Shown: in pieces, positions 2,785-24,569 of the stretch
How positions within the stretch are numbered: position 1 is the first letter of the stretch
How the letters are laid out: every line of letters begins with the position of its first letter
Virus record (IMG/VR): IMGVR_UViG_3300027888_000011
Span: 1 to 30,162 of that record
Source of the DNA: a virus
Reading direction: 5' to 3' (one strand)
DNA length: 30,162 nucleotides
The notes under the pieces: model-generated
Database searches by the model: none
What the model saw: the letters and a program-made list of their open reading frames with translations, nothing else
What the model was told of the DNA's origin: nothing
Made by a program: the position numbers and the translations under genes

Positions 2785-2786
2785 TG

Positions 2787-3245
2787 ATGCCTGCTCCAAC
2801 ACAAATAATTATTGGGGGCAGGATATTCCCTACGATTTATAGTGGGATTGCTGTGGCTCCTATGCAGCCAGGGAGCGTTTTAAAGTTAACTGGTAGCTAT
2901 GTAGGAGAACTTTTAGAATGCTGTGGGATTGATGCTGTAGCGGTTCCTTGTATACCGGCGGTTGCTTTGGAAAAGGAATGGGGAGATATTGATTATAATT
3001 ATCAAACGGGGGACAGTGTATCTATAGCATTTTTGCGTAGTGGCCAACAGTTTTGGTGTAGATTGGCTCCTAACCAGATTCTTTCTCCTGGTGATTTTTT
3101 ATGTTCTTCGGCAACAATTGGGATGGTTGAAAGGTATAGTTTAGGGACAACCCCTAGCGGTCATCCAAATACTATTATAGCGATGGCCTTTGAAAATAAA
3201 GCTACCGATGAGAACCCCGGAATAGTTCATGCTATGATTGTTTAG
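2787..3245 (+). CDS. Capsid-region paralogue 1 (decoration-like protein)
   Basis: This 152-residue protein is the first of six related small proteins around the capsid gene. It shares with them the order PGSVLKL ... GDSVSIAFLRSGQQFW ... PGDFL ... a short Gly turn ... IIAMAFEN ... a final beta strand. The pattern is all-beta, like small capsid decoration proteins (for example DUF2190-type beta-barrels), but no named family is certain. It has five cysteines, more than its siblings. I chose ATG 2787 over the adjacent GTG 2784, which overlaps the upstream stop; either is possible. It is the most divergent member and lacks the SSYSKA motif. A head-surface or head-fibre role is inferred from position and fold pattern. 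Confidence 0.7.
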   Translation: MPAPTQIIIGGRIFPTIYSGIAVAPMQPGSVLKLTGSYVGELLECCGIDAVAVPCIPAVALEKEWGDIDYNYQTGDSVSIAFLRSGQQFWCRLAPNQILSPGDFLCSSATIGMVERYSLGTTPSGHPNTIIAMAFENKATDENPGIVHAMIV

Positions 3246-3264
3246 GGGCTAAAGGAGATATTAA

Positions 3265-3723
3265 ATGGGTATCGCGAATATTCTTACGTCTAGTTATAGC
3301 AAGGCTACATTGGTTAGCGGGGTATTGCAAGAGACCGTACTGCCTGGTCATCTTGTCCAAATTGTAGGTAAGCAGGCTGATGGTGTTTTAATCTTTAAGT
3401 CAGTAAATGTTGCTAATGCATCAGTTAGCTGCGCTGTTGTGGTGGAAGATGTGGCTGCTGGGCAGATGCTTTATTCTATGCTTCAGGAGGGCGATAGGAT
3501 TACCGTTGCCTATGTTCCTTCAGGGGAAACATTTTTTGCTTATTTAGCCCCTGAGCAAACAGTTGTGGTTGGCGATCTTTTATCATCTAGTTTGTCGGCT
3601 GGTCGGTTGCAAAAATATCCAGGTGGAGCGCCTTCTGCGCCTAACTGTATCGTAGGTGTTGCGTTAGAAGATGTAACGACTTTAGTCGCTGAGTATAGAA
3701 CAATAAAGGTAAGTGCATTTTAA
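3265..3723 (+). CDS. Capsid-region paralogue 2 (decoration-like protein)
   Basis: This 152-residue all-beta protein is a clear member of the six-paralogue set. Near the N-terminus it has SSYSKATLVSGVL, which is shared with paralogues 5 and 6. The core is PGHLVQIVG ... CAVVVEDVAAG ... GDRITVAYVPSGETFFAYLAPEQTVVVGD. It closes with NCIVGVALED and a terminal IKVSAF. The start ATG follows AAAGGAGATATTAA. The alternating small Gly-rich turns and beta strands fit a beta-barrel capsid decoration protein. No enzymatic motif or transmembrane segment is present. Its exact position on the virion cannot be told from sequence. Confidence 0.75.
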   Translation: MGIANILTSSYSKATLVSGVLQETVLPGHLVQIVGKQADGVLIFKSVNVANASVSCAVVVEDVAAGQMLYSMLQEGDRITVAYVPSGETFFAYLAPEQTVVVGDLLSSSLSAGRLQKYPGGAPSAPNCIVGVALEDVTTLVAEYRTIKVSAF

Positions 3724-3732
3724 GGGGACTAT

Positions 3733-4236
3733 ATGAGCCCAACACCTAAAACTATTGTTGTCACCGGCTTAGACCAAATGATTACTGTAAGTGGTATTTG
3801 TGTACAAGATACTACTCCTAGTATGCGGCCAGGTATGCCGATTAAAATTAAGCCTGGCGGTGCGCATAATGAATTTATGATTGAAGATGCTATATTTTCT
3901 GATTTTCAGCCTGCTAATAAGGCTATTGTTTTAGATGATATCAGCCGTGGCATTGGAGTTGATTATGCATTTTCTGCGGGGGAAGCCATCACCGTAGCAT
4001 ATCTTACCCCTGGGGTTGTATTTTGGGGCAGAATAAATGATAGTTCTCCAGATAATATTGACATTGGTGATTATTTAACGCTCCCCTATTCCCCAAGTGT
4101 TGAGTATAGAGGAACATTTAGTAAATGGAAGTATAATCTGCATCTAGGCGTAGCAATGTTTGGGATTTCGTTGACTAAAAGGTTGACTGGTGCTGAGGAT
4201 AAATGGGTTACCATCAGATATTCGAAGGTTTGGTAG
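3733..4236 (+). CDS. Capsid-region paralogue 3 (decoration-like protein)
   Basis: At 167 residues this is slightly longer than paralogues 1 and 2. It pairs with paralogue 4, sharing the N-terminus TPKTIVVTGLDQMI with a following GIC and Q, then RPGMPIKI, GEAITVAYLTPGVVFWGRI, IDIGDYL and a final VTIRYSKVW. The pairing suggests an additional recent duplication within the array. The start follows AAGGGGACTAT. An aromatic insertion near residues 122-140 is not shared with paralogues 2 and 5. A structural virion role is inferred from operon position between protease and capsid genes. Confidence 0.72.
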   Translation: MSPTPKTIVVTGLDQMITVSGICVQDTTPSMRPGMPIKIKPGGAHNEFMIEDAIFSDFQPANKAIVLDDISRGIGVDYAFSAGEAITVAYLTPGVVFWGRINDSSPDNIDIGDYLTLPYSPSVEYRGTFSKWKYNLHLGVAMFGISLTKRLTGAEDKWVTIRYSKVW

Positions 4237-4245
4237 GATATATTT

Positions 4246-4764
4246 ATGGGGAATACTCCAAAAAATATTATTGCAGCTGGTTTAGATAAAATTATTCTTA
4301 CCGATGGGGTTTGCAGACAAAATGGTGCTCCGTTTATGCAACCAGGCATGTTTGTTGATGCTTGTTCTGAAGTGTTTAAGGACGGTAGTGAGTATAAAGT
4401 CGCTACGTCTGCAGTTCAAGATTTCCAAAAAACTAGTGGGGCTATAGTTTTGGAAGATTTTTCGATAGGTGTAGATGTTAATTATGTTTTTTCTTATGGA
4501 GAAAAAATTAGGCTTGCTTGGCTCCGTCCGGGAATACATTTTTGGGGTAGAGTACTTCAGGCAGGGTTTATTTATATAGGGGATATTGTTGGTTGTTCTG
4601 GGCTTTATTATCAGCCCACTGATGGGACATTTGCTCAACATTTGATTGAATCTCATGCCCCTGATTATATATATGGAAACCCTATGTTTGGGGTAGCGCA
4701 ATCTTTTGTTGATAATGTGTCTGGGGTAAGATGGGTTTTAATAAGGGTTGATGATTTTTATTAA
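4246..4764 (+). CDS. Capsid-region paralogue 4 (decoration-like protein)
   Basis: This 172-residue sibling of paralogue 3 has TPKNIIAAGLDKII then DGVCRQN near the N-terminus, QPGMFVDA, then AIVLEDFSIG, GEKIRLAWLRPGIHFWGRV and IYIGDIVG. It ends in VLIRVDDFY. The FWGR tetrapeptide is shared exactly with paralogue 3. The start ATG follows TAGGATATATTT. The region between the GD loop and the last strand is longer here (residues about 115-150), with several Tyr and His residues. As for the other members, capsid decoration or head-fibre function is inferred, not shown. Confidence 0.72.
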   Translation: MGNTPKNIIAAGLDKIILTDGVCRQNGAPFMQPGMFVDACSEVFKDGSEYKVATSAVQDFQKTSGAIVLEDFSIGVDVNYVFSYGEKIRLAWLRPGIHFWGRVLQAGFIYIGDIVGCSGLYYQPTDGTFAQHLIESHAPDYIYGNPMFGVAQSFVDNVSGVRWVLIRVDDFY

Positions 4765-4797
4765 AATGGTAGCTATTTATTTGGTAGGGGAGATGTG

Positions 4798-5265
4798 ATG
4801 GCTATTAATTATTTTCCTACTTCAATCTTATGCTCTAGTTATAGCAAGGCGATTTTGGCCGGAGGTGTTGCAGACACTACAGAGCTGAGGCCTGGAATGC
4901 TTGTAGAAGTTTCTGGTAAAATTCCTGATGGGACTATTAAGTATAGAGGAGTTTTGATAACGGCTGGGCCAGCGACGTGTTGTGTGGTTTTAGAGAATTT
5001 GGCTATGGGAAGGTCGGTTGGGGGGAGTGGTTTGTCTACTGAAGAGCGTATTACTGTCGCTTATATCCCCCCGGGAGAAATCTTCTATGGGTTGGCAGTT
5101 GGGGACCAGACGATAACGATTGGAGAACATCTAGAAGGTGCGTCTGGTGGGTATTTCCGCCGATATATTACCCTAGGGTATCCAAATGCTGTAGTTGCTG
5201 TTGCGATGGAAACTATGGCAATACCGGCTGGTGATTATGCTTATGTTAAGATGATAGCGTTTTAA
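4798..5265 (+). CDS. Capsid-region paralogue 5 (decoration-like protein)
   Basis: This 155-residue protein is closest to paralogue 2. It has LCSSYSKAILAGGV, RPGMLVEVSGKI, CCVVLENLAMG, ERITVAYIPPGEIFYGL, ITIGEHL, then AVVAVAMET and a terminal YVKMIAF. I start it at ATG 4798 because AGGGGAG lies just upstream; the GTG at 4795 would add one residue. It is the last paralogue before the major capsid gene, 24 bases away. Same all-beta pattern as its siblings, no transmembrane segment and no catalytic motif. Confidence 0.74.
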   Translation: MAINYFPTSILCSSYSKAILAGGVADTTELRPGMLVEVSGKIPDGTIKYRGVLITAGPATCCVVLENLAMGRSVGGSGLSTEERITVAYIPPGEIFYGLAVGDQTITIGEHLEGASGGYFRRYITLGYPNAVVAVAMETMAIPAGDYAYVKMIAF

Positions 5266-5289
5266 TATTTTGTTGATGAGGAGATACAA

Positions 5290-6306
5290 ATGGGTACGAA
5301 TGAAGTTTCTATTGAAACTATTAGCAACGGAGAGCCTTCTGGGCAAGTTTCTGCGGCGTTATTAGAGCAATATGGAGGAACTCGTATTAATTTGAGCGAG
5401 TTGCGTAGCTTGCAAGTATTCCCTAGGAATTTATGGGAATCTTTTGATAACGTTTTAGTCGAAACTGCTAAAGAAGAATTGGTGGGTGTAGCTGATTTAA
5501 ATAAAAGGGCGCAGTTGACGATAAATTTTGATGCTATGTCTGCTGGAGTTTATGTGCGAGATTTAGCGTCTGAGATGGAAGATGCTACGACTGGGTTGAC
5601 TCCTGATAGCCGCGGGTATGCTGAGCAGCTTAATTTATCTACCATTAGCGTGCCATTGTTTGTAACTTATAAGGATTTTTTGGTTAATGCTAGATATATG
5701 GCTGAAGCAGCTAGGGTTGGTTTGCCATTAAGGACCCAACAAGTGGTTGAAGCAACCAGGGCGGTTTCAAGAGCATTGGAGTATCAGTTATTTAGGGGAC
5801 AATTCACGGCTAGTGGAGCGACTGCTTGGGGGTATACTACATTCCCTGAGCGTAATCTTTTTACGATTACTTCATGGCTAACCGAAACTCCTGCCAACAT
5901 TGTTCAACAGGTTGTTGATATGGTGGGAATTTCTGTAGAGCGCAAACATTTTGGTCCTTGGATTTTGTATTTGCCGTATTCGTATTTTGCTGTAATGAAT
6001 AAAGATTATCTTGTTAGCTCTGTTTATGGAGCCATGACAATCAGGGAACGTATTTTGCAAATTCCTAGAATAGAAGATATAAGATTTACTTATCAATTAG
6101 GGGCTGCGGTAGAAGAAGTTGTTTTGGTAGAGATGAGAAGTGACACCGCACAATTAATTAATGGGTTGCCTTTATCGGTTGTTGATTGGGAGCCTGCTGG
6201 TTCACCGAATTGGACCCATTTGTTTAAGGTTTTGACTATTACTGTTCCTTTATTGGTAGCTGACTATAATGGGAATTGTGGCATTGTACATGGGTCTGTT
6301 TCTTAA
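5290..6306 (+). CDS. Major capsid protein, HK97/encapsulin-like fold
   Basis: This 338-residue protein sits where the major capsid protein is expected, and its pattern matches a phage capsid family of the encapsulin-like type. A helical N-arm (ESFDNVLVETAKEELVGVADLNKRA) is followed by a segment with YVRDL and DSRGYAEQLNLSTISVP. Then come RALEYQLFRG, a WGYTTFPERN loop, a GPWILYLPYSYF strand, and the closing WEPAGSPNWTHLFKVLTI and GNCGIVHG. It should assemble the icosahedral head after cleavage or release of the scaffold by the upstream protease. A GAGGAGAT ribosome site precedes the ATG. There is no obvious N-terminal delta domain, which fits a separate or nested scaffold. Confidence 0.85.
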   Translation: MGTNEVSIETISNGEPSGQVSAALLEQYGGTRINLSELRSLQVFPRNLWESFDNVLVETAKEELVGVADLNKRAQLTINFDAMSAGVYVRDLASEMEDATTGLTPDSRGYAEQLNLSTISVPLFVTYKDFLVNARYMAEAARVGLPLRTQQVVEATRAVSRALEYQLFRGQFTASGATAWGYTTFPERNLFTITSWLTETPANIVQQVVDMVGISVERKHFGPWILYLPYSYFAVMNKDYLVSSVYGAMTIRERILQIPRIEDIRFTYQLGAAVEEVVLVEMRSDTAQLINGLPLSVVDWEPAGSPNWTHLFKVLTITVPLLVADYNGNCGIVHGSVS

Positions 6307-6321
6307 GAATAGGAGATATTA

Positions 6322-6891
6322 ATGCCAGCTCCTCCAGTCAAGTTAGGTAATGTAGCGTGGGGAGAGGATACCTATTTAGGGTCTTCTAATATCTATATTT
6401 TAGGATGGGATGTTCCCCATGAACAAGTATCGGCAGACAATATTCTATGTTCTAGCTATAATAAGGCTGTGCTAGTTTCTGGAATATTAGCAGATGAAGT
6501 TAGTGTCCCTGGAGAAATTATGGAGGTGTATGATATAGCCGCAGACGGTACTTGTTATTATAAAACTGTTAACGAGGTAAATAGAGCCAGTTCTTGTATT
6601 GTTTTGTTAAATAATTTTGAATATGGGCACGCATATAAAGTATATCATGCTTTTGATAGAATAGTTGTTGCGCATTTACCTCGTGGGGCAGTATTCCATG
6701 CATGGCTTGATCATGAACAGTCTGCAGTGGTTGGGAGTTTTTTATATGCTGCGTCTAGTGGAGGATTAAGGGTATATGCGGGGGAAACTATTGCTGAGTG
6801 CGGGATGGATCAATTGTTGGGGATTTCTTTGAGTTCGGCCGATACGGTTGGTATAGAGGAAAGAAAGTTGATTAAGGTGTGTGTTGCTTAA
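6322..6891 (+). CDS. Capsid-region paralogue 6 with N-terminal extension
   Basis: This 189-residue member lies just downstream of the capsid gene. Residues 1-37 are an extension absent from the others. The paralogue core then starts at ILCSSYNKAVLVSGIL and continues with PGEIMEVYDI, CIVLLNNFEYG, DRIVVAHLPRGAVFHAWL, VVGSFLY and a final LIKVCVA. The core is nearest to paralogues 2 and 5. The added N-terminus may anchor it differently, for example at a vertex or neck; that is speculation. The start ATG follows AGGAGATATTA. Its position on the far side of the capsid gene shows the array was split by, or grew around, the capsid gene. Confidence 0.72.
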   Translation: MPAPPVKLGNVAWGEDTYLGSSNIYILGWDVPHEQVSADNILCSSYNKAVLVSGILADEVSVPGEIMEVYDIAADGTCYYKTVNEVNRASSCIVLLNNFEYGHAYKVYHAFDRIVVAHLPRGAVFHAWLDHEQSAVVGSFLYAASSGGLRVYAGETIAECGMDQLLGISLSSADTVGIEERKLIKVCVA

Positions 6892-13024: not shown

Positions 13025-13533
13025 GTGATGATTTAGCTGAATCTTATAATAGCAATATATTAAGTCATGCGAATGCTATCGGTTGGTTGATGTATACTAA
13101 ATATAAGCTTGGGTCCCCTTCCAACAAAAGTCCATTAGCAAAAGAAGCTGATTGTTTTGGTATAGTAATAAATTATATTTATTTAACTACTGGGAAGATT
13201 TTGCCCGATGTTGAGGGCGGGGATGTTGTTAATTTTAACAATTATAAATATTTGTATCCTCGAGATAAAAAGGTTGTGTTAGAAGCCTTAGAAAAATATT
13301 TTATAAAATATTTTATTCCAATTCCAGTTTTGCATAGGTATTCAGGGGACATTTTATGGGCGTATTCAAAAAATGATGACGGGACGCCTAATGATGGCAT
13401 TGATAGCTGGGCATTGGGTATTGATTGTGGGAATGGGCAAATGATGACCACATCAGATAAAGACGGGCCGGTTGTTATCCAATTGAATTCATATGATGTA
13501 AAAAATGTTTATAGATATTTAAATGGGAAGTAG
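12970..13533 (+). CDS. NlpC/P60-like tail tip protein, catalytic His apparently lost
   Basis: This 187-residue protein keeps the NlpC/P60 pattern of lambda gpK and GTA peptidases: a catalytic-type Cys in EADCFGIVINYIY (Cys62), GDILWAYS (127-134), and the strand WALGIDCGNGQMM (147-159). In active enzymes that strand reads H-V-G-I-x-x-G-N-G; here Ala148 stands where the His is expected. It may be a structural relic or use another residue, for example His122. The start is fixed by GGAGGG at 12959-12964, five bases before the ATG, although it lies 55 bases inside the gpL-like gene. It overlaps the gpJ-like gene by 11 bases. Confidence 0.7.
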   Translation: MVAELNQQNIDSGEKKEISDDLAESYNSNILSHANAIGWLMYTKYKLGSPSNKSPLAKEADCFGIVINYIYLTTGKILPDVEGGDVVNFNNYKYLYPRDKKVVLEALEKYFIKYFIPIPVLHRYSGDILWAYSKNDDGTPNDGIDSWALGIDCGNGQMMTTSDKDGPVVIQLNSYDVKNVYRYLNGK

Positions 13534-16459
13534 TGTAAGAAAATTTGTAGGGGCAGTCGCTCCGATTATTGCTGGGGCCGCAGTAGCATTTTTTGGTCCA
13601 ATTGGTGCTGTTGCTGGAGCTATTTTAGTCGGTGGCAGTGCTCTTTTGGGAGGTAGATTAAGGTTTGGAGTTAGGGAGGGGGCTAGGCATGAACTTAGGT
13701 ATAATACATCAACCACACAAGCCACTCTAAATTTAATTTATGGCAAAAGGATTGTGGGCAGTAACGATGTTTTTGTTGAATTAACTAACAAGAATAAAAC
13801 ATTGTGGATTGTCCATTGCTTGGGGGAGGGAGAAATTGAAGGGATTGAGGTAGATACAGAGGGGAAGCCATTAATTACTATTGCTGGCAGAAAATTTAAA
13901 GATTACCCAGCTGGGAAGGTTAAGTATTATTTCCATTCTGGGACAAATGATCAGGCTGTTGATGCTAATTTACATGCAGCGATTACAAAATTTACTGATA
14001 CTATGCGTAATACTGCTTATATTGTTTTTGAATTAGATTTTAGTACTTTTAAAAGTATCCCAAATAGAGAGGTTGTAATTAAGGGGATTAAGGTAAAAGA
14101 TTTTACTAATCCTACCGCTCCTGCTGCATGGTCTGAGAATCCTGTTTTAGCTTTATATGATTATATTACTAATGCTAGGTATGGATTGGGGTGGGATCCT
14201 TCTTTGATAGATTTGGATACGTGGGTATCTGCAAAGAATTATTGTGATAACCATGTAAAGCCGTGGAAATTTAATTATGTCGTTACTTCTCAGGTTAATT
14301 CTCAGTCTATTATTGATACGATTTTGTATCATTTTAGGGGAGTATTAACTTATTATGCTGGTAAATTGTTTTGCCATTATCTTGAAGATGCTCCCAGTAT
14401 TTTTTCAGTTGTGGACGAGCACATTGTAAGAAGTGATGATGGATTAGCGTTTGTTTCTGTTTCACAGCCTAGTACGCACGATTTGCCTAATACAGCATTG
14501 GTTCGCTATGTTAGCCCTAACCTTGAATGGGCTGATGATGATTTTGTTATTGGGGAAGCTATTTCTGGTAAGGTTAGGACGATTGATTTCCCTGGGTATA
14601 CGGATAGAGCATTAGCTGCTGAAATGGCGGTTTATATATTAGAGCGAGAGCGATTAAATAGGATTTATACTGCTACATTGCGACTTGACACTGTTGTTAT
14701 TGATGTTAATGATGTGATAAATTTTGCTTCGACTGAATTGTTGCTTGGGATAGACCCTGCCAGGAAGTATCGAGTTAAAGAGTCTGTGGTTTTGTCTGAT
14801 GGTCTGGTCCAAATTACTTTTGTTGAAGACAATGCTGAATTATATGATGCGGTTTATAATGATAACCAAGAAAGATATATTATTGATATTTATTCTCCGT
14901 ATGATCCTCCTCCCCCAGTAATTAATATAGCTTTTGAAGAAGAATTATATACATTTCGTGGACGTACATTCATTCGGCTGAAATGTACCTTTGAGCCACC
15001 AGCTGAATATGCTTTTTATGCGTATAGCAATATTTATGTACGAGCTGGAGATACTGGAGAATTTACACAATTAACCAGTGTAGTAGATAATTTTTCTATG
15101 GAGAGTGTTGAAGAAAAGATAACGTATTACTTTAGGTTTTGGAGCGTTTCTACTGAGGGGACGCTTGCTATTACAGCGGCAGAGGCTAGCCATTATGTAG
15201 TTGGCATTTCTACATTGCCCCCAATTAACCCACTTGCGTTAGAGGTTACAATCTCCGGAGATTCTGTAACTTTATCGAGTGAAGAGGTATATCAACAAGA
15301 TATACCCGAAGAATGTAATTTGTATGCTTGGGATTTTAGGTTGAATAATGATTTAACCGCTGGGTATGGAGGGGCATTATTAATTTCTAAGAAAAGTACT
15401 CCGTTTTATTCTTTTACAGGATTAATCCCTGGAGAATATAAATTTTTTGTAAATACTCTTGGGAGGAATGAAGTATATGGGACAACTCCAGCGGATAAAA
15501 ATGATAAAAAATTTGATCCTCCAATTGCGTTTGAGCACTATTTTGATGATCCAATCAGTTATGTAACTGGTCAACATTTTAATACTGAAACTGTTGGCGG
15601 TGAGTTAAAATGTATTTTGTCTAGCCCATCTTTAAGCGGATATTATTTAACTCAAGTTAAGCAGTTGGTGCCTCCTTTGACAGAGGGAGAAGGTGTTATT
15701 ACTAGTGATACTCAAACCTTAGCGCCTACAAATTTATTTTGTTTGAGTCGTAAAACTGCTTGGGATAAATTGTCTATTGGTGATTTTGTGCAGCCATTAG
15801 GGCAAACTGGGTTTGTTATTACGGGTAAATATGCATTTGGTTCTACGTTTGAGTTTGATGATGCGATTGTTACCGATAATGATCCAACTGAATGGCTAGA
15901 AGTTAACGCTATACAGTATGATATTTTGTTTATTGGGTCTGAGATAAGGTGGGTCCATGATCCAGCGCAGATTAATTATACTGTGTTGGAAAAGCATTTG
16001 ATTGCAGGAGAATATTGGATCACTTTAGACCAAACTATATATACTCCAATGCCTAATGTAACCACTGCTCAGGTTTATTATAAATTACCAAATGCTATTG
16101 GAACTGCTGTTGCACAGCCAGCAGTTTATAATATAGCTTTTTCTTATAGAGAGTCGGTAGACGAAAAAACTATAACTGCTTTAGGTTTTGAGTATTATAT
16201 GTCCGGGAGCGTACCGTATTCTTATGCTGGAGGATTACATATCAACCTATATTATGGTCCGTCTAGTACTGGCCCATGGACGGAAAGCACTGATTTACAG
16301 CTTTTAACGTCAAATATTGATTTACCAACGGCAGGAGTGTGGTATTATATGAGGTATGATTTGTTAGATTATTCGCCAACTCCTGCACCTGATCCTGCTA
16401 CAAGGAAGCAAATTATTATTAAGCCAAGTACTCTTAAAATATATAGAAGAACTCAATAA
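13523..16459 (+). CDS. Central tail tip / host specificity protein, gpJ-like
   Basis: At 978 residues this is the largest protein. Residues about 1-50 are Gly/Ala-rich and hydrophobic (VGAVAPIIAGAAVAFFGPIG), like lambda gpI or the start of tip proteins. Residues 60-480 show gpJ-like features: LNLIYGKRIVGSND, LWIVHCLGEGEIEGIEV, ENPVLALYDYITNARYGLGW, and TDRALAAEMAVYILERER near a beta-rich hub. Residues about 480-600 look like fibronectin-type domains. Residues 640-978 are beta-rich, aromatic and probably surface-exposed, ending YRRTQ. It forms the central tip that contacts the host. The Phage-tail_3-type hub assignment is good; the receptor-binding role of the C-terminus is inferred. Confidence 0.88.
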   Translation: MGSSVRKFVGAVAPIIAGAAVAFFGPIGAVAGAILVGGSALLGGRLRFGVREGARHELRYNTSTTQATLNLIYGKRIVGSNDVFVELTNKNKTLWIVHCLGEGEIEGIEVDTEGKPLITIAGRKFKDYPAGKVKYYFHSGTNDQAVDANLHAAITKFTDTMRNTAYIVFELDFSTFKSIPNREVVIKGIKVKDFTNPTAPAAWSENPVLALYDYITNARYGLGWDPSLIDLDTWVSAKNYCDNHVKPWKFNYVVTSQVNSQSIIDTILYHFRGVLTYYAGKLFCHYLEDAPSIFSVVDEHIVRSDDGLAFVSVSQPSTHDLPNTALVRYVSPNLEWADDDFVIGEAISGKVRTIDFPGYTDRALAAEMAVYILERERLNRIYTATLRLDTVVIDVNDVINFASTELLLGIDPARKYRVKESVVLSDGLVQITFVEDNAELYDAVYNDNQERYIIDIYSPYDPPPPVINIAFEEELYTFRGRTFIRLKCTFEPPAEYAFYAYSNIYVRAGDTGEFTQLTSVVDNFSMESVEEKITYYFRFWSVSTEGTLAITAAEASHYVVGISTLPPINPLALEVTISGDSVTLSSEEVYQQDIPEECNLYAWDFRLNNDLTAGYGGALLISKKSTPFYSFTGLIPGEYKFFVNTLGRNEVYGTTPADKNDKKFDPPIAFEHYFDDPISYVTGQHFNTETVGGELKCILSSPSLSGYYLTQVKQLVPPLTEGEGVITSDTQTLAPTNLFCLSRKTAWDKLSIGDFVQPLGQTGFVITGKYAFGSTFEFDDAIVTDNDPTEWLEVNAIQYDILFIGSEIRWVHDPAQINYTVLEKHLIAGEYWITLDQTIYTPMPNVTTAQVYYKLPNAIGTAVAQPAVYNIAFSYRESVDEKTITALGFEYYMSGSVPYSYAGGLHINLYYGPSSTGPWTESTDLQLLTSNIDLPTAGVWYYMRYDLLDYSPTPAPDPATRKQIIIKPSTLKIYRRTQ

Positions 16460-16463
16460 GATA

Positions 16464-17849
16464 ATGGCGATAGTTAATATCACAGCATCTATAACTTATT
16501 ATACTAATGCAAGCCTTCGCAGTGGGTTAAAGTCCAATATTATTCCGCTTGGCTATTGGACTTTAACTCCGGATGAAAACTATTATGTTGCGGATAATAG
16601 TCTTAATTTTATTTTTGGCCAACCCGGATTTATTACAGAAGATTTACAGGCTTTTGATGTTAATCAAAATACTAATATAGACTTAGCTGTATTGCTCCCG
16701 CATGGTATCCTTTTTAGCGATTCCATCCAAAATTCTTTAGCTATAGCGACGCTAAAGAAGGAAGCTCCTGAATTAAAGACTGATATTCAACAAAATAGTT
16801 TTATCGCGGCACATATAGTTTTGTTTGGTGGGGAATTATTAGCTAATGTTACTCATAATACTATTTCAGATACAAAGTTATCTACTGAAGGGTCACTCCC
16901 AACTACCCATATAATTCAGCATTCTTCTGCTTTTGGACGAATTTTTACCGGGACTCAATTTAGTGTTAACGCTTATCAAAATTCTTTAGGCTCTGGACTT
17001 TTAGAAGCTCATAATATAAATGTTCAGGGGGATATTAGTCAACAATCCTATGCTACCGCTACTGTTAATTATTCCTTGATATTTAAGGGGGTTGCATCTG
17101 AAGCATCTCAAGCTATAGGATTACTTTTTTCTGAAAAAGATATCTTCGCTACTATAGTGAATTTATCAGCTAGTAGTGCAATATTATTCCATTACAAAAC
17201 GATTAATGCTCTTGTTAGTCAAGAGAGTGCCCAGTATAGTCGAGTTGGTTTTGCTCGGTCAGCGTATGGGGTGGCTACTCATTATTCAACTGCTGTAGCG
17301 GATATTAATGAGGCGACCAGATTACATGTTCATCCTACCCATAATTCTTATAGTATAAGTACGATTGGAGCTCGTAGTACTTTCAAAGTAGGGGCAGTAC
17401 ATAATACATATACTGATGTAAAAATTCATGTTATTGGCGATGCGAAAAGTGCTACAGCATATTTGTCTTGTGTTCCATATGCTTTTATTACGCAAGAAGG
17501 GCATCGCTTTATTAAGTCTTTTAATACTAGACAAAGGACCAAAATTGCAAGGGCATATTTAATCCCATCGCATGTACCTAAGCAATATCTTAAGACTTAT
17601 TTGTTGCAGGAGGCTCAGCAAGAATCTTATTTAAGTGTAGCTACAAGGGATCTTTTAGCGTATAATATTCAGGTAACTGATACTGTTGCGTATATTTGGA
17701 CTGGATACCATAGATTGTTAGGTGATTTGGTCCAAAAAAGTGTTACTTTTGTAGTACCTACAAAAATTCTTAAAAAGATAATTGTTAAACCAAGATTAAT
17801 TTATTACGGTGAGCCTAATTTGCATTTTATTTTTTATGATGATGAATAA
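16464..17849 (+). CDS. Tail fibre protein with about fifteen 20-21-residue repeats
   Basis: These 461 residues contain a striking periodicity. A short motif of the form [Q/H]-N-[S/T] (or a close variant such as QQS, QES, YLS, FNT) recurs with its Ser/Thr near residues 70, 91, 112, 133, 154, 174, 195, 215, 235, 255, 275, 295, 315, 335 and 355, that is every 20 or 21 residues. It is followed by alternating small and hydrophobic residues such as SYATATV or SLAIATL. This predicts a beta-solenoid or trimeric beta-fibre shaft of about 15 coils. The N-terminus may bind the gpJ-like protein and the last 90 residues, free of the motif, may be the head domain. I do not recognise a named family. Confidence 0.75.
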   Translation: MAIVNITASITYYTNASLRSGLKSNIIPLGYWTLTPDENYYVADNSLNFIFGQPGFITEDLQAFDVNQNTNIDLAVLLPHGILFSDSIQNSLAIATLKKEAPELKTDIQQNSFIAAHIVLFGGELLANVTHNTISDTKLSTEGSLPTTHIIQHSSAFGRIFTGTQFSVNAYQNSLGSGLLEAHNINVQGDISQQSYATATVNYSLIFKGVASEASQAIGLLFSEKDIFATIVNLSASSAILFHYKTINALVSQESAQYSRVGFARSAYGVATHYSTAVADINEATRLHVHPTHNSYSISTIGARSTFKVGAVHNTYTDVKIHVIGDAKSATAYLSCVPYAFITQEGHRFIKSFNTRQRTKIARAYLIPSHVPKQYLKTYLLQEAQQESYLSVATRDLLAYNIQVTDTVAYIWTGYHRLLGDLVQKSVTFVVPTKILKKIIVKPRLIYYGEPNLHFIFYDDE

Positions 17850-17885: not shown

Positions 17886-17909
17886 TTATAGTTAATGGGA
17901 GGCATTACA

Positions 17910-18350
17910 GTGGCTATTAATGGTTATTCTTTAGCGTCCGCACAAGCTTTGCAGAATTTGCTCTTTAGGGCATCTGCTGCTACTTTCCCAACTGTATTTT
18001 ATGTAGGATTGTCGACTGCGGCAGCTACATGGTCTGATCCTAACCCTTTTGTTAATGGGGAGCCTGGCCCGACCACTGGTTATGCTAGGGTAGCAGTAAC
18101 TCGCAATACGACAAATTGGACCGCAGCTGACGCAGATACTGCTAAAGTAACTAATGCGGTGGAGATTACGTTCCCTGAATCTACTCAGTCATGGGGGACC
18201 ATTACTGCCTTCGCTATTTTTGGAGCTGCTACTGGGATTACCGATTTTAGTTTAGGTGGCAATTTAACCAATCCAGTAACAATCGGAACAAGCACTATTG
18301 CTAGATTCAATATTGGCGATTTGCAAGTATCTAGCGTTAATGCTCCGTAA
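17910..18350 (+). CDS. Small tail-fibre-associated protein
   Basis: I start this protein at GTG 17910 because GGGAGG (17897-17902) stands seven bases before it; the ATG at 17895 would place the ribosome site inside the gene. The 146-residue product matches a widespread phage tail protein pattern: a short helix (ALQNLLFRAS), FPTVFYVGLSTAAATWSDP, GYARVAVTRN, a strand with VEITFPESTQSWGTITAFAIFGAATG, then LGGNLTNPVTIGTST and a final GDLQV strand. Such proteins are usually found next to tail fibre genes and are annotated as tail fibre proteins without a known activity. Confidence 0.78.
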   Translation: MAINGYSLASAQALQNLLFRASAATFPTVFYVGLSTAAATWSDPNPFVNGEPGPTTGYARVAVTRNTTNWTAADADTAKVTNAVEITFPESTQSWGTITAFAIFGAATGITDFSLGGNLTNPVTIGTSTIARFNIGDLQVSSVNAP

Positions 18351-18358
18351 TAAATAAT

Positions 18359-18724
18359 ATGTCTGAAGTTCCCACTATTACTGTAGTAACTCCATCTAGC
18401 AATACATTTAAAATAAAATTGTTAGATGGAGATATACCTGTTAGTTTAAAAAAAATTACAGAGGTGGGACTATTTTTTGATGATGGATTAACAATAAAAT
18501 CTTCTGATCATCCAGATGTTTTTATTTGGGAAGAGGGGCACGGTTTTGATATTGTTACAGGGTTAATTATTTTTAGGTTAGGGACTGTTCTGTTGGGATT
18601 GTCTGGGATTAAAAATGCAGCTTTATATACATTTGAACAGAATCAAACCAATCCTATTTTTTGGGGGAATCTAAGAATTAGGGTTGTGGCCAGAGATAAC
18701 GTGCCAGGCGCTGCTGATTTGTAA
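18359..18724 (+). CDS. Uncharacterised 121-residue tail-cluster protein
   Basis: I do not recognise this protein. It is 121 residues, beta-rich, with segments TITVVTPSSNTFKIKLLDGD, ITEVGLFFDDG and ENGLIIF-like strands, and no signal peptide or membrane segment. It begins nine bases after the previous stop with no strong ribosome site. Lying between a tail-fibre-associated gene and six fibre paralogues, it is probably a virion or fibre-assembly protein. The ending ARDNVPGAADL is short and polar. Confidence 0.6.
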   Translation: MSEVPTITVVTPSSNTFKIKLLDGDIPVSLKKITEVGLFFDDGLTIKSSDHPDVFIWEEGHGFDIVTGLIIFRLGTVLLGLSGIKNAALYTFEQNQTNPIFWGNLRIRVVARDNVPGAADL

Positions 18725-18751: not shown

Positions 18752-19564
18752 ATGGTCATTGAAATCATTAAGACGATACATAATTTAAGGGCTAACCGGG
18801 ATCCTCTGGTAGATCAAGACTTAATAACAGTTTCTCCAGATGGTTCTGATGAAATATATAAGACCACAGTAGTAACGCTTGCTGTGCATATTGTGCATTA
18901 TAGCGCTGGGAGACTTGGTATTTTTAAAAATATGTGTGTTAGCACCCATATAGCAAATGCACATGCTGTCCCAAAATTATCAGTTGGCCTTAGCGAAGGA
19001 GCTGATATAGCCACTTCTATGGGAGGCCCTCATTTCCCGAATCAACTATTTGGGCAATTGTCATCTGATGCTTTGGCTTTCCCAGATTTTATCCCGCCCA
19101 CATGGGCTCCTTGGTGGCTTCCGTTTAATCATACGGATTTAGGTGGAGGGTTTTTTACCCTTATGCCTGGGTATGATACCCACGCCTTTACTCCTCCATT
19201 AACCAATACCTCTATTACTGAGTCTGCATTTTCCGTATATATGTTGGATATAAATCTTGGGACTAATCCATATAGCAGTGTTACTGAATTTATTTGGATG
19301 GTGGAAATTGGTTTTATGTATTATGAGGGTGATCCTCCTGTCCTGGTGAATACGACTTGGCTTGCATTAAATGCTTGGCAAGGGTTTAGTATATCTAGTG
19401 CTATGGATCACAGAATTGCTATTAGTGCACAATATACGGTTAATGTCCCTAATGGATTAACTGTAAAAAGGTGGTATGTCCCATGTTATGCGTGGACTCT
19501 TCCTTGTTTGAACCTTTATTTTGATAGACAACATTCTACATTTCGTGTTGTAAGATTAAAGTAG
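18752..19564 (+). CDS. Fibre/receptor-binding paralogue A
   Basis: First of six tandem related genes, 270 residues. The N-terminal 45 residues have the anchor-like pattern shared by the set: hydrophobic-x-x-L, then D-Q-D-L-I-T-V with SPDGSDEIYKTTV, then LAVHI. This resembles the short adaptor segments of phage fibres. The middle is beta-rich and aromatic (FPNQLFGQLSS, WAPWWLPF, FSVYMLDINLG, WMVEIGFMYY). It ends in FRVVRLK, the C-terminal signature of the set. The start ATG follows AAGAGGGCAGT. Receptor binding is inferred from location after the tail fibre genes and from conserved ends with variable centre. Confidence 0.68.
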   Translation: MVIEIIKTIHNLRANRDPLVDQDLITVSPDGSDEIYKTTVVTLAVHIVHYSAGRLGIFKNMCVSTHIANAHAVPKLSVGLSEGADIATSMGGPHFPNQLFGQLSSDALAFPDFIPPTWAPWWLPFNHTDLGGGFFTLMPGYDTHAFTPPLTNTSITESAFSVYMLDINLGTNPYSSVTEFIWMVEIGFMYYEGDPPVLVNTTWLALNAWQGFSISSAMDHRIAISAQYTVNVPNGLTVKRWYVPCYAWTLPCLNLYFDRQHSTFRVVRLK

Positions 19565-19577
19565 TGTGGAGCATAAT

Positions 19578-20447
19578 ATGGCTTTAGATCAAATTTCTTA
19601 TCATGGGCTTGATAATGATACTGATCCTATAACGGATGATAAATTGTTTTGTATGGCGCATGATGGAGAAACAGAAGCAAGAAAGGAGGTTTTGGGGGAT
19701 TTAGCCCCATTTGCGCTGCAGCGTAATCCTCCTCTTGATATGAAGTTTCCGGAATTAAGGGTTAATAATATTACCGCTACCCCTAGCGGGATAATTCCGG
19801 CGAAATACTCTAATATGGTTAATAACGTTCCCTCAGGGGATTTGAGCCCTCAACATACCCCTAATTTACCAAATCAATATTGGGGTACAGCAGCATTGAT
19901 TAATGGGGCTGTATATTATGTTAAGGATGATTCTATGGATTTGGTTTGGGATACGATACCTAACGATAAACTGTGGACTGATAATTTTTTTAGAATAGAT
20001 TCCCCGAATTATCCAGAGTATGCTCCGGTAGTTGCGCACCAATTCCCAGGGCAACAACATGCTACCCTTGCCTTTAGAATTAAGCATGGGCAGCCCTATA
20101 ATAGTGTTTACCATTTGTATGCGTGTTGGCGGCTTAGAATTGGTATGCAGCCTATTTTCCCGGAAGTATATCCGTATTGGGTAACGGTTGGATATTTTAA
20201 TACTCAGGCGCATGCTACGATTCCAACTTTGGTCAATTCCATAGTATCGTGGTGTATAATATTTGATAGAATTGATGGATATACTGTATCTATGTCTACA
20301 ATTTTTAGAGTGACTAGTGGTGCTGCAGAAGACATATATATTGCCCCGGTGATTAAAAATCATTATGTTTGGGCTTTTTGGGCATATTGGGGCAGAATGT
20401 CATACCAGCTCCTTGAGTATAGGACTACCTTATTTAGAATAGCGTAA
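19578..20447 (+). CDS. Fibre/receptor-binding paralogue B
   Basis: This protein has 289 residues from ATG 19578; a GTG at 19566 would add four residues, but GTGGAG just upstream of the ATG favours 19578. The anchor is DPITDDKLFCMAHDGETEARKEV then LGDLAPFAL. The middle shows LPNQYWGTAALI, matching the F-P-N-Q/R-x-x-G motif of A and C, and YHLYACWRLRIG with WVTVGYF, matching the VY-x-I...IGV core of the family. The ending is TTLFRIA. It has a Pro-rich insert around residues 60-95 that is not shared. Its role is inferred as for A. Confidence 0.66.
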   Translation: MALDQISYHGLDNDTDPITDDKLFCMAHDGETEARKEVLGDLAPFALQRNPPLDMKFPELRVNNITATPSGIIPAKYSNMVNNVPSGDLSPQHTPNLPNQYWGTAALINGAVYYVKDDSMDLVWDTIPNDKLWTDNFFRIDSPNYPEYAPVVAHQFPGQQHATLAFRIKHGQPYNSVYHLYACWRLRIGMQPIFPEVYPYWVTVGYFNTQAHATIPTLVNSIVSWCIIFDRIDGYTVSMSTIFRVTSGAAEDIYIAPVIKNHYVWAFWAYWGRMSYQLLEYRTTLFRIA

Positions 20448-20461
20448 AGAAAAGGTATATT

Positions 20462-21256
20462 ATGCCAGTAGTATTAAAGAATATTCCTGAATTATCCGAG
20501 GCAACCGCGCTCAACGATTCTGATGTAACCATTGTTGGGGACTCATTTATTGACCCAATTTATAAAAGAAATTTGGGTAGCATTGCCAATAATATTGTAG
20601 CATCTAATAAAGACGCCAAAGCTCATATAGTTAAGGTGCAGAAATTACGCGATAGCGCCAATGTTTTAACCAGCATGGATTTACCAGAGATAATGACTCA
20701 ATGGCATGCTCCGTTTTTCCCAAATCGAGCGGCTGGGACGATGACGACCGATTTTGATTGTGGATTAATAGTAGAATGGCAAACATGGCATACTATCCCT
20801 TACAAATATATCGAGGAGGATCAGGGTGGTGTAATCAGAAATTATCCAGAGTTATTTACGGATAGGGCTATAGGACTTGTGGGGGGGGCGTTTAGGCTTC
20901 CGCTTATTAACCCGGCAATAGCTCCAGTTAGTATATATTATATATCGGCGTATTTATCGTTTTTGCCTATATATTCGGCGCGTAATGATATGAGATTCAG
21001 AATGTATATAGGAGTTTTTGAGGGTGAGCCAGGGACTCCGCCAGCACAGATATGGTCAACTAGAATAAGAGAGTTTTGGATAAAATATTTGTATGCTGGG
21101 TCTCAGTTTGGGATTGGAGATACGGCTATGTATTTTGAGTACAATAGAGCATCTGGCCCTCATCATTGGGTTGTTCCGTTTGTTACTCTTAATATCAGCC
21201 CTGTTGCGATTTGTGATACCACTGGATCTAAGTTTAGTCTTGTAAAGATGAATTAG
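20462..21256 (+). CDS. Fibre/receptor-binding paralogue C
   Basis: This 264-residue protein has the clearest anchor in the set: LKNIPELSEATALNDSDVTIVGDS then IYKRNLGSIANNI. The pattern L-P/E-x-A-x-x-L-x-x-x-D is common at the start of phage fibre and head-fibre proteins. The middle has FFPNRAAGTM, FRLPLINPAIAPVSIYYISA and MRFRMYIGVFEGEPG, matching the family core, then HHWVVPFVTLNI and the closing FSLVKMN. It starts 14 bases after B, with AAAGGTATATT upstream. No enzymatic motif is seen. Confidence 0.68.
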   Translation: MPVVLKNIPELSEATALNDSDVTIVGDSFIDPIYKRNLGSIANNIVASNKDAKAHIVKVQKLRDSANVLTSMDLPEIMTQWHAPFFPNRAAGTMTTDFDCGLIVEWQTWHTIPYKYIEEDQGGVIRNYPELFTDRAIGLVGGAFRLPLINPAIAPVSIYYISAYLSFLPIYSARNDMRFRMYIGVFEGEPGTPPAQIWSTRIREFWIKYLYAGSQFGIGDTAMYFEYNRASGPHHWVVPFVTLNISPVAICDTTGSKFSLVKMN

Positions 21257-21281
21257 TGATAAAGCTAAATTAGGTCATAAC

Positions 21282-22157
21282 ATGCCTCATATAAGACCGA
21301 CAAGCGTATATAAATTGCCATGGAGGCGGGCGAAAGATTTATTAGAATCTGATGCCATAATTTTATCTAAGAGTGATGGAAGTGGTGGGAATGTTTATGT
21401 AACTCTTGCGGAATTTAAAGATTATATATTGAATAGTGGCGCATCTCCAACCATGAGATGGTTGCGCTTATATAATTTTATTAATTCACAGCCAGATCGT
21501 TTCCCTGATACGCCTGATTATATCGTTGGGCACAAAAGTCCGGTAATCGCTGGTGGGCCATTCTTACAAACATCTCTTTGTGGGACGCTCCGTCCAAAAG
21601 ATTATAGCTCTCCAATTACAGTTTATTGGGATTATACGGTAAAACCAGAATACCCTTATATGTGGCAACCTCAATTAGAATTTGCTAGTTGGGGGGGTGC
21701 TTGTCGTACGGGACAGTTAATGCAGTCGGTAGAAGATCAGCCAACGATTCCAAAGTTACATGGGCATGCTGCTATTTATTTGCCCCAAACATCTTTTAAT
21801 TCTGTTTATATAATAAATTATAGAGTTAATTTTAGGGCGTATGGATTCTCTGGGCGGATACCCCCTGCAATTTATATTTTTAAGGGTAGGGTTGGGTTCG
21901 CAAGTATGTCTGAAGATCGGTCTACTGTTGTAGACGTAACCTGCATTAATGAATTGTTTGCTTATGTTTTGACTTGGGAAGAAATGGTTGTTGCGGGCAC
22001 CTATTTATATTATAAGCCGGCCGCCTCGGAGAGAACATGGCTTATTCCAATTGTATGGTGTTCTGCAACTGCACCATTCTTTTACCCAGGGGTTATCCAA
22101 ATGGAGACTCATTATAGCTCCTATGGTAATGAGTATTCTGTAATGAAATTGGTGTAA
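21282..22157 (+). CDS. Fibre/receptor-binding paralogue D
   Basis: This is a 291-residue paralogue. The anchor reads VYKLPWRRAKDLLESDAIIL then SDGSGGNVYVTLAEFKDYIL, close to C in design. The middle contains GPFLQTSLCGTLRP, SVYIINYRVNFRAYGF and AIYIFKGRVGFASM, aligned with the FPN-x-x-G, VY-x-I and IGF elements of the family. It ends TYSSYGNEYSVMKLV-like, with the signature YSVMKLV. Compared with A-C there is a longer loop at residues 60-90. Function inferred as a receptor-binding or fibre tip subunit. Confidence 0.66.
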   Translation: MPHIRPTSVYKLPWRRAKDLLESDAIILSKSDGSGGNVYVTLAEFKDYILNSGASPTMRWLRLYNFINSQPDRFPDTPDYIVGHKSPVIAGGPFLQTSLCGTLRPKDYSSPITVYWDYTVKPEYPYMWQPQLEFASWGGACRTGQLMQSVEDQPTIPKLHGHAAIYLPQTSFNSVYIINYRVNFRAYGFSGRIPPAIYIFKGRVGFASMSEDRSTVVDVTCINELFAYVLTWEEMVVAGTYLYYKPAASERTWLIPIVWCSATAPFFYPGVIQMETHYSSYGNEYSVMKLV

Positions 22158-22160
22158 TTG

Positions 22161-23051
22161 ATGGCAAATGATATAGATTTAAAAGTTAAGGCCTTCCAAA
22201 CATACCCGCGTGCATCTGGCATAGCAGGTGACGAAATTAGTCTTGGCGCTTCTTCGGCCTCAGTCCCTGTATGTAAATACCCATTATTGAAATATCGTGA
22301 CCCAGTTATTAACACCGAATATTTCCGTACATTTCAGAGTGTTACTGGGGTTAGATCTATTAAGGACAAATCGTTTGGGCGGAATGCTCTTGTTTTGCGG
22401 TATCAAGATTCTTATTATGAATATCTTAGGGCTTCCCCTGAGCATATTAAAAGATTTTTTGGATTATTAAAATTTGTCCCTTTGCCCGGAGCGCAAACAT
22501 TTGAAGCCTGTGGCGGAGATACTGGTAATTGGCATTTATTGCCTTTTGCTAACTACACCTATGATGATTATTTGATCGCTAGGACATATACTGGTACATC
22601 GCCTATTGATTATGGATTTTTGCCTCATGCTAGGCTTTTACCCCCCCCCAATTATGCGTCTTCTTTCCTTTTACCTGAGCTTAAGCCTACTGAAACTAGC
22701 CAAGAGTTACATGATAATTTCCATCTCTATATGGTATTTTTACATTTGAGTACTTTAAATATTGGTGTAAATACATATGCTAATTTAAGGTTTGACATAG
22801 CACTTTATATGCGGTATACAAGTTATCCTGGTGTTGGAGAATTTGTTCCATTGGCATCTATTGCCCCACAATGGACAATCTCTGCGGATATTTTTGCTAT
22901 ATCGGGAGCTTATACGTTTAGTGTGGCTACGAATGGGGGCTCTTCATTTGAAATTTTCCCCCTTTTTAGAACTAATACCTATTTATGGGGGTATAATGCT
23001 ATATGGTTTGATAATATCAAATCTTATTTTGGGGTTATAAGGTTAAATTAA
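22161..23051 (+). CDS. Fibre/receptor-binding paralogue E
   Basis: This protein has 296 residues from ATG 22161; the TTG at 22158 directly after the previous stop would add one. The anchor is less clear than in C and D (LKVKAFQTYPRASGIAGDEISLGASS). The middle retains the family core in HLYMVFLHLSTLNIGV and LRFDIALYMRYTSYPG, then IFPLFRTNTYLWGYN and the ending FGVIRLN. It has the longest unique segment of the set (residues about 60-190), with many aromatic residues. The gene begins just three bases after D, so the two are probably translationally coupled. Confidence 0.64.
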   Translation: MANDIDLKVKAFQTYPRASGIAGDEISLGASSASVPVCKYPLLKYRDPVINTEYFRTFQSVTGVRSIKDKSFGRNALVLRYQDSYYEYLRASPEHIKRFFGLLKFVPLPGAQTFEACGGDTGNWHLLPFANYTYDDYLIARTYTGTSPIDYGFLPHARLLPPPNYASSFLLPELKPTETSQELHDNFHLYMVFLHLSTLNIGVNTYANLRFDIALYMRYTSYPGVGEFVPLASIAPQWTISADIFAISGAYTFSVATNGGSSFEIFPLFRTNTYLWGYNAIWFDNIKSYFGVIRLN

Positions 23052-23052
23052 T

Positions 23053-23910
23053 ATGGATGTAATGAGGCCTATACATGAGTGGCCAGAAGGCGGTTATGGG
23101 GTTGAAACCAGCGTTACGTCTTTAGCTGTTCAAGCAGACGATCACAATATATACCAAACTAGCAATACGCATTTTGCTGATTGGATATTTTATTTTGATT
23201 ATGTGCCGCCAACAAGGACCGCGCAGTTCGAAAACATTTCTTTGGATTTTATCGAACCATGGGCAGAAGATTTTTGGGATCCAACTTGGCCGCGGACAAA
23301 GATTTTCCATTATTTGAACAAAGGGCCGACTAACCCAATTGATGTAGCCTTTGAGAACCAATTTTATTGTGTGTTGCAGGCAGGGGTTAAATTAGACACT
23401 TCAGTTTATTGGCAATGGGTTCCCTATAAATTTGCATATATTCAGGAAATGTTAGGGATAAAGGCAGATAATTATTCAAAAGCAGTTGATATTGCTTTGC
23501 CTGGAGAAGATCCTAGATATGTTATTGCTATCCCCAACCTACCGGCTGATTATGTTACTTATTCTAGATATTTGATATCTTTATCTTTGATAACGTATAA
23601 GCCTAATGTAGATCTTTATAATCTTCGACTTAAACTTGGGTTTATGGTATTAATGGAGGTAGAGGGAGCATATATAGCTTATGCAGGCCCATACATGCTC
23701 AATGAGGTTCATTATTATCCCAATTTAGCATATCAAAAAATTGGGATGCATGCTAGTATAATTTGGACTCAAACTGATAGGAATTTCCTTGGGGACTGCC
23801 GTACTCCTCAGAATTTAGCAATTGAACCACTTTATATGATTAATCAATTAACACAGAATCTTTTTACAGAGGTAGGCATTTGTAATTTTAGTATTGTAAG
23901 AATTGCATAG
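23053..23910 (+). CDS. Fibre/receptor-binding paralogue F
   Basis: This is the last member, 285 residues, starting one base after E. The anchor is the most divergent (MDVMRPIHEWPEGG, then SLAVQADDHNIYQTS). The core motifs remain as YSRYLISLSLITYKPNVDLYN, LRLKLGFMVLMEVEG and a closing FSIVRIA. The Trp-rich stretch near residue 75 (EPWAEDFWDPTWPRTK) is unique. The six genes share ends and core but little of the middle, as expected if they bind different surfaces or form a mixed complex. That reading is inference. Confidence 0.64.
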   Translation: MDVMRPIHEWPEGGYGVETSVTSLAVQADDHNIYQTSNTHFADWIFYFDYVPPTRTAQFENISLDFIEPWAEDFWDPTWPRTKIFHYLNKGPTNPIDVAFENQFYCVLQAGVKLDTSVYWQWVPYKFAYIQEMLGIKADNYSKAVDIALPGEDPRYVIAIPNLPADYVTYSRYLISLSLITYKPNVDLYNLRLKLGFMVLMEVEGAYIAYAGPYMLNEVHYYPNLAYQKIGMHASIIWTQTDRNFLGDCRTPQNLAIEPLYMINQLTQNLFTEVGICNFSIVRIA

Positions 23911-23932: not shown

Positions 23933-24169
23933 ATGGGATGTTGTAATTTAGAAATTGATGCGGTGCAATGTCGTAAGAATCAAATTATAGCAATTGATCA
24001 AATTATTAATGCAGTAGATGAGTTGAAGTTAAAGGTAGTAGATTTAGGGGCTGAAAATATTGATTTTTCTAAAATTAAATTGGTCTTGCAGATTTTGGTA
24101 CAAATAGTGATCCCAGCTATTCAAAATATCCTAGATATGATTGGGAAAGCAGCGAAAGAAAAGGGGTAG
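23933..24169 (+). CDS. Small amphipathic-helix protein, function unknown
   Basis: This 78-residue protein has a very good ribosome site (AGGAGG, six bases before the ATG), so it is probably well expressed. It starts MGCCNLEIDAVQC with three cysteines close to the start, then is helical. A hydrophobic stretch near the C-terminus (LVLQILVQIVIPAIQNIL, residues about 50-67) is followed by a Lys-rich tail. That could be a membrane or an amphipathic coiled helix. A holin-like role is possible but unsupported. It sits between the fibre genes and SSB. Confidence 0.65.
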   Translation: MGCCNLEIDAVQCRKNQIIAIDQIINAVDELKLKVVDLGAENIDFSKIKLVLQILVQIVIPAIQNILDMIGKAAKEKG

Positions 24170-24176
24170 GGATATT

Positions 24177-24569
24177 GTGTTGAATATTAATAAGGTTTTT
24201 ATCGCTGGGGAGATTACCAGGCCAATAATTTATAAGACCACTGTGCAGGAAGTAGGCATAGCTACTACGACTATTAAAACCAATGAGACTTGGATTGATA
24301 AAAAAACCGGATTAGAAAGAGTTAAATATGAATGGCATAAAATTGTTTTTTGGGGACAGCTTGCTTTAACTGCATATAATACTTTAAAAGTTGGTGATTG
24401 TGTATCATTAGAAGGAGTTTTACGTACAAGAAAATGGACTAATGAGGCTGACGGGACTACTAAGTATTTTACCGAAATTCATATCAATAGCATTAAAGAA
24501 CATGTTAGCCGAGTTGCCAGTATGAGCGGGAGTACTTCTAGGTTGACCATATCATCTGTTGAGTATTGA
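24177..24569 (+). CDS. ssb: Single-stranded DNA-binding protein, short form without acidic tail
   Basis: The OB-fold pattern of bacterial SSB is present: LNINKVFIAGEITRPI at the start, ATTTIKTNETWIDKKTG, YEWHKIVFWGQLALTAYNTLKVGDCVSLEGVLRTRKW, and TKYFTEIHINSI. The product has 130 residues. It ends SSVEY, with no acidic DDDIPF-type tail that recruits partner proteins. I use GTG 24177 (TTG 24180 is equally possible) because the family begins with M-L-N and AGGGAT precedes it; an upstream TTG at 24141 lies inside the previous gene. SSB is on the late strand, although the other replication genes are on the opposite one. Its last 18 bases overlap the end of rusA. Confidence 0.85.
   Translation: MLNINKVFIAGEITRPIIYKTTVQEVGIATTTIKTNETWIDKKTGLERVKYEWHKIVFWGQLALTAYNTLKVGDCVSLEGVLRTRKWTNEADGTTKYFTEIHINSIKEHVSRVASMSGSTSRLTISSVEY

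Follow-up and report, generated by a model that had tools for sequence, protein, structure and literature searches.

The IMG/VR virus record IMGVR_UViG_3300027888_000011, which in its entirety forms the window analysed here (30,162 bases), carries six tandem + strand open reading frames at positions 18752-23910, downstream of the tail-tip gene J. We call them F1 to F6, and the question they raise is what these proteins are and why a phage would keep six of them. The initial annotation had read them as fibre paralogues with conserved ends and divergent middles, grown by duplication and able to bind several receptors or to form a hetero-oligomer. The six fibre-like reading frames are present as described, in a genome with a siphophage-type gene set (minor head protein, protease, major capsid protein, tape measure, tail assembly and tail-tip J). 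J is followed by a 461-aa protein, a Gp80-family protein, a 121-aa protein, F1-F6 and then early genes, which include SSB and RusA, RecT and exonuclease homologues (Table 1). Alternative starts exist for F2 (GTG 19566) and F5 (TTG 22158), but the ATG codons at 19578 and 22161 were preferred because they agree with the orthologues in a related phage.

Table 1. The six fibre-like genes and the genes leading up to them, in window coordinates. Identities are to the related phage; leave-one-out HMM E values are the better one of each orthologue pair; the parts of F1 were placed by aligning F1 to the F3 model.
Feature	Position	Strand	Identity in relative	Leave-one-out E	Predicted parts	Remarks
Tail-tip protein J	13523..16459	+	70% overall			PHROG 31, E 2e-41; Pfam Phage-tail_3
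461-aa protein	16464..17849	+	63%			Between J and array; no Pfam or PHROG match
Gp80-family protein (podophage GP4 fiber I protein)	17895..18350	+	91%			Pfam PF23140, E 1e-21; PHROG 240
121-aa protein	18359..18724	+	83%			Adjoins F1 upstream; no Pfam or PHROG match
F1, 270 aa	18752..19564	+	58-59%	1.8e-15	Docking segment, residues 1-53; knob start ~19028; last-strand start 19535 (STFRVVRLK)	
F2, 289 aa	19578..20447	+	45%	1.1e-3	Knob start ~19860; last-strand start 20418	
F3, 264 aa	20462..21256	+	45%	1.8e-6	Docking segment at 20462-20605; knob at 20711-21253 (nine-strand jelly roll in the model)	AF2 model; Foldseek
F4, 291 aa	21282..22157	+	68-70%	0.025	Knob start ~21558; last-strand start 22128	
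F5, 296 aa	22161..23051	+	68%	0.77	Knob start ~22437; last-strand start 23022 (SYFGVIRLN)	C-terminal profile match to F1; C-terminal signature
F6, 285 aa	23053..23910	+	61%	0.37	Knob start ~23347; last-strand start 23881 (NFSIVRIA)	C-terminal signature

Scans of viral contigs, with F3, J, TMP and MCP as single queries and with the J, MCP, F5 and Gp80 pairs, recovered one relative that carries the array, IMG/VR 3300005782_000013. A second contig (MCP 32% identical) stops before J, and in a third (TMP 44% identical) the downstream tail region is unrelated. Bacterial and archaeal genome scans found no relative, and tblastn of F1, F4 and the Gp80-like protein gave no match in 50,697 phages. Pfam, PHROG and PDB sequence searches with the single F proteins and with a 12-row family profile returned no match, and Pfam C1q (PF00386) gave none at E <= 10 in either phage. 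The N-termini of the F proteins also matched nothing in Pfam, PHROG or PDB, and XD/TD (T4 gp10-like) domains were thus not found there.

The clearest likeness among the six proteins lies at their ends. Over the last seven residues, the mean between-family BLOSUM62 score of F1-F6 was 12.5, compared with -7.1 (SD 1.1) at random positions of the same proteins; none of 5000 random draws reached it (z = 17), and the other C-termini of the phage scored -6.3 among themselves in the same test. For the first 50 residues, z was 7.3 in one phage and 6.1 in the other, and in neither did any of 1000 shuffles score as high. The conserved ends are thereby confirmed. The middle segments were marginally alike (z 2.2-3.7). 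F1 and F3 were the sole pair linked by ordinary BLAST (E 8e-6), were also joined by orthologue-pair profiles (E 4e-7) and gave the one convincing alignment of the middles, the remaining matches being weak, colinear profile matches. The great differences in length that the initial annotation saw in the middles are not reflected in the proteins as a whole, which are of similar size (264-296 aa).

In leave-one-out HMM searches, the E values weakened from F1 through F3, F2 and F4 to F6 and F5 (Table 1). F6 and F5 ranked third and fifth of ~3880 sequences with shuffles only ahead of them; a few of the 3600 shuffled sequences beat these two, and no unrelated ORF of either phage was listed above them. 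The 12-row alignment contained three invariant columns, compared with a shuffle mean of 1 and a maximum of 4, and this count, not being above shuffles, was dropped as support for the 'VY-x-I ... IGF' core of the initial annotation; what stands of that core is drawn from the C-terminal half of the proteins and from the structure model. Taken together, the sequence comparisons indicate that F1-F6 form one paralogous family, with a certainty that falls from F1/F3 to F5/F6: the case is strong for F1-F4 and, outside the ends, weak for F5 and F6. The weak leave-one-out results of F5 and F6 and the invariant-column count are what would be seen if the six were not one family and resembled each other by chance, as beta-rich proteins may. 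This explanation is very unlikely, however, given the C-terminal z of 17, the N-terminal z of 6-7, the same length, strand and order of the genes and the colinearity of even the weak profile matches.

An AF2 model of F3, built from all 12 family rows, was of moderate confidence, with a mean pLDDT of 54 and ~70 for residues 90-264, and its C-terminal knob forms a nine-strand sandwich. When this model was compared with the PDB by Foldseek, 25 matches had E <= 1e-3. Almost all of them belong to the TNF superfamily (FasL, CD40L, RANKL, TL1A, TNF and TRAIL); BxpB and the CBD of the short tail fibre of cyanophage A-1(L) are also on this list, and slightly behind came C1QL3, ExsF and PLTL, a TNF-like lectin. 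TM-scores to TNF proteins were 0.41-0.58, depending on the target. Against BFVD, the list was led by C1q-domain proteins, collagen-C1q proteins and tail-fibre receptor-binding proteins. The F1 model, made from four rows (F1 and F3 only), had a pLDDT of 34.5; its high-ranked matches were TNF-like lectins (BC2L-C and PLTL) and TNF ligands at E 0.01-0.04, none passing E 1e-3, and its list also holds viral jelly-roll capsid proteins. The two models are concordant, that of F1 being weak, so the structural similarity on which the initial reading depended is predicted for these two members. We regard a TNF/C1q-like jelly roll as quite likely for F1 and F3, and by extension from them the same fold is probable for F2, F4, F5 and F6. 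Conservation is clearly higher in the strands than in the loops for F2, F3 and F4, but not for F1, F5 and F6. In TNF/C1q proteins, strand C bears a conserved tyrosine, and in TNF-fold trimers the last strand (H) lies at the three-fold axis. If the F knobs adopt this fold, the 'VY-x-I' motif may correspond to strand C and the C-terminal signature, as in SYFGVIRLN of F5, to strand H.

The related phage has all six genes as 1:1 orthologues in the same order, strand and spacing. In a tree, each F protein groups with its own orthologue at 99-100% support, indicating that all six genes predate the split of the two phages, and the closest paralogues, F1 and F3, are not adjacent in the array. Growth by duplication thus survives as the origin of a paralogous family, but the tree and the synteny speak against a recent tandem duplication and, in this one comparison, against cassette swapping. 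The gain, loss and shuffling of members that the initial annotation envisaged did not appear between the two phages; neither did reordering or whole-knob replacement.

Of the genes compared, the F genes belong to those that diverge fastest, and their sequences are far from constant. In the relative, identity is ~75-90% for the capsid, the tape measure and the majority of the tail proteins (71% for one). The dN of F1-F6 was 0.21-0.51 (dN/dS ~0.27-0.44), against 0.05-0.10 (dN/dS ~0.05-0.17) for the capsid and tail tube/assembly genes and 0.05-0.11 for all others tested; the other fast genes were J (dN 0.23) and the adjoining 461-aa gene (dN 0.26). As dN/dS was below 0.5 everywhere, the F genes are constrained but fast, a pattern that would be expected of host-contact proteins. 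J is ~90% identical over residues 1-550, 30-55% over residues 550-900 and 80-100% in its last 50 residues, which likewise would be the pattern expected at a phage-host contact. The drop in J identity is sharp and resembles a receptor-contact module flanked by conserved ends.

A role of the F proteins in receptor contact is suggested indirectly, by their position next to J and the Gp80-family fibre protein and by their fast divergence. It is also conceivable, though improbable, that they are structural or decoration knobs on the tail or neck, which would stabilise the particle or bind weakly instead of binding receptors. Two of the closer Foldseek matches, BxpB and ExsF, are TNF-like proteins with a structural role on the spore surface, and the neck fibre of A-1(L) does not bind its host (PMC10966104), but the F genes lie near J and share their fast divergence with the C-terminal half of J. 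The initial interpretation is thus supported in part: the fibre-like layout holds, with a putative docking end and a predicted C-terminal beta knob, and the genes lie behind J and evolve faster than those for other virion proteins.

We therefore favour, as fairly likely, the reading that F1-F6 are anciently duplicated paralogues of a short trimeric siphophage tail fibre with a TNF/C1q-like knob. Here we infer the same fold in all six, trimer formation, docking to the tail and receptor binding. The N-terminal ~50 residues of each F protein would dock onto a common virion site, and a short linker would join this segment to the C-terminal knob of ~180 residues. As is usual for this fold, three chains would lie next to one another, their last strands (consensus FSVVRL) forming part of the trimer core, and the knob loops would bind host-surface receptors, probably glycans. 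A docking end and a core last strand would explain why the ends are conserved and the loops variable.

Judged from their sequences, several co-encoded and co-oriented proteins thus appear to combine a common docking end with different putative binding parts, as in a multi-RBP array. One way to use them would be as six independent homotrimeric fibres sharing one docking site, each with a different receptor, which together would make up a host-range repertoire. The common docking end, the divergent knobs and the long duplication history agree with this, as do the uneven identities (F2 and F3 45%, F4 and F5 68%), which look as if receptor pressures differed, and precedents exist in the four TSPs of Ackermannviridae and the 14 of phiKp24 (PMC11414711) and in the Bdellovibrio MAT fibres (PMC10769870). 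Multi-RBP phages usually vary their RBPs, however (PMC11414711), and the gain, loss or swap of knobs usual in repertoires is missing from the one comparison, so that we hold a repertoire to be a serious candidate that falls short of probable.

That two distant phages have kept all six, and in the same order, speaks for fixed parts more than for a cassette with swappable members. On this evidence, F1-F6 resemble the fixed components of a single attachment machine, not interchangeable spares, which suggests fixed roles, either as six constant receptors or within one hetero-oligomer or ordered chain. Heterotrimers of such folds are exemplified by C1q A/B/C and lymphotoxin alpha/beta. It is possible, if somewhat doubtful, that the six are non-interchangeable subunits of one assembly, arranged as two heterotrimers or as a branched or bead-chain fibre of set order, where the docking end of each member would sit on the knob or base of another. 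The six genes have kept their order and strand despite 45-70% identity, while a second array near the capsid gene has lost or gained one member; a common docking end and last strand would also fit member-member contacts, and the A-1(L) gp82-gp81-gp80 neck fibre (PMC10966104) and the Ackermannviridae TSP complex (PMC11414711) provide precedents. Yet the comparison comprises two phages, and six separately useful homotrimers would explain the retention as well. A single obligate hetero-oligomeric fibre made by duplication, its binding surface combined from different chains as in the animal proteins C1q A/B/C and lymphotoxin, is unlikely.

Phages with several fibres have been described, as have fibre heads of TNF-like fold, and it is their combination that is new. 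A single counterpart is the tail fibre gp24 of cyanophage Pam3, a solved structure of ~280 aa with N-terminal docking helices and a TNF-like domain, a fold described as rare in phage fibres (PMC9608196). Like gp24, the F proteins would be short fibres with an N-terminal docking part and a TNF-like domain near the C-terminus, and would form trimers as gp24 does; gp24 differs in being encoded by one gene of a myophage without a paralogue array, in its glycine-rich tip and chaperone, and no sequence similarity was detected between the two. C1q-domain phage RBPs (e.g., PMC7468147) similarly place a variable C1q-like knob downstream of tail fibre genes, but each is a single gene, and Pfam C1q matches them by sequence, unlike the F proteins. 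The branched TSP complex of Ackermannviridae and phiKp24 resembles the F array in that several RBPs with conserved N-terminal assembly parts are co-encoded. These are large beta-helical enzyme spikes with XD/TD domains and variable, swapped C-termini, whereas the F array has small, predicted TNF/C1q-like knobs and a conserved C-terminal strand, with no swap seen. The Bdellovibrio MAT fibres are also paralogous and trimeric, and some of their tips are TNF-like and act as GlcNAc-binding adhesins (PMC10769870); in contrast to the F array they are bacterial, with long beta-helical shafts, tips of many folds and scattered genes. The A-1(L) neck fibre shares with the F array an operon of trimeric globular proteins that build one chain through N-terminal contacts (PMC10966104), but it repeats one bead gene product ~14 times and attaches to the neck, whereas the F array comprises six different genes near tail-tip genes.

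If our reading is right, F1-F6 are TNF/C1q-like phage fibres of a sequence family that had gone unrecognised, and unusually many paralogous fibre genes for a phage with a ~30-35 kb contig. Their ordered retention then raises the question of why so small a phage has six different knobs, and whether phages build C1q-like hetero-oligomeric knobs. The conserved last strand would offer a simple annotation handle for similar orphan fibres.

Several neighbouring genes deserve mention. The Gp80-family protein may be a fibre base or adaptor, and the 461-aa protein possibly a further fibre or adaptor. The latter has repeat-like HNT/HSS/QES motifs, evolves fast and keeps its position between J and the array in the relative; a PDB match to homeodomains (E about 1) was dismissed as chance. 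As the initial annotation had pointed out, the phage also has a second six-member array, unrelated to the F genes. These paralogues flank the capsid gene at 2784-6891 (ORFs 2784, 3265, 3733, 4246, 4795 and 6322; 152-189 aa; 23-39% identity) and are possibly capsid decoration or head-fibre proteins. Two members compared with Pfam had no match, and five compared with PHROG had none that was significant. The relative has five members, the counterpart of 4246-4764 being absent. No lysis gene was identified within the window. A 78-aa protein directly 3' of the F array (23933-24169; 71% identical in the relative) has a hydrophobic or amphipathic C-terminal half. The SSB-like gene at 24141-24569 overlaps this ORF upstream; a TTG is the only start from which it can be read, and the SSB-like gene of the relative begins with the same TTG (position 20689 there).
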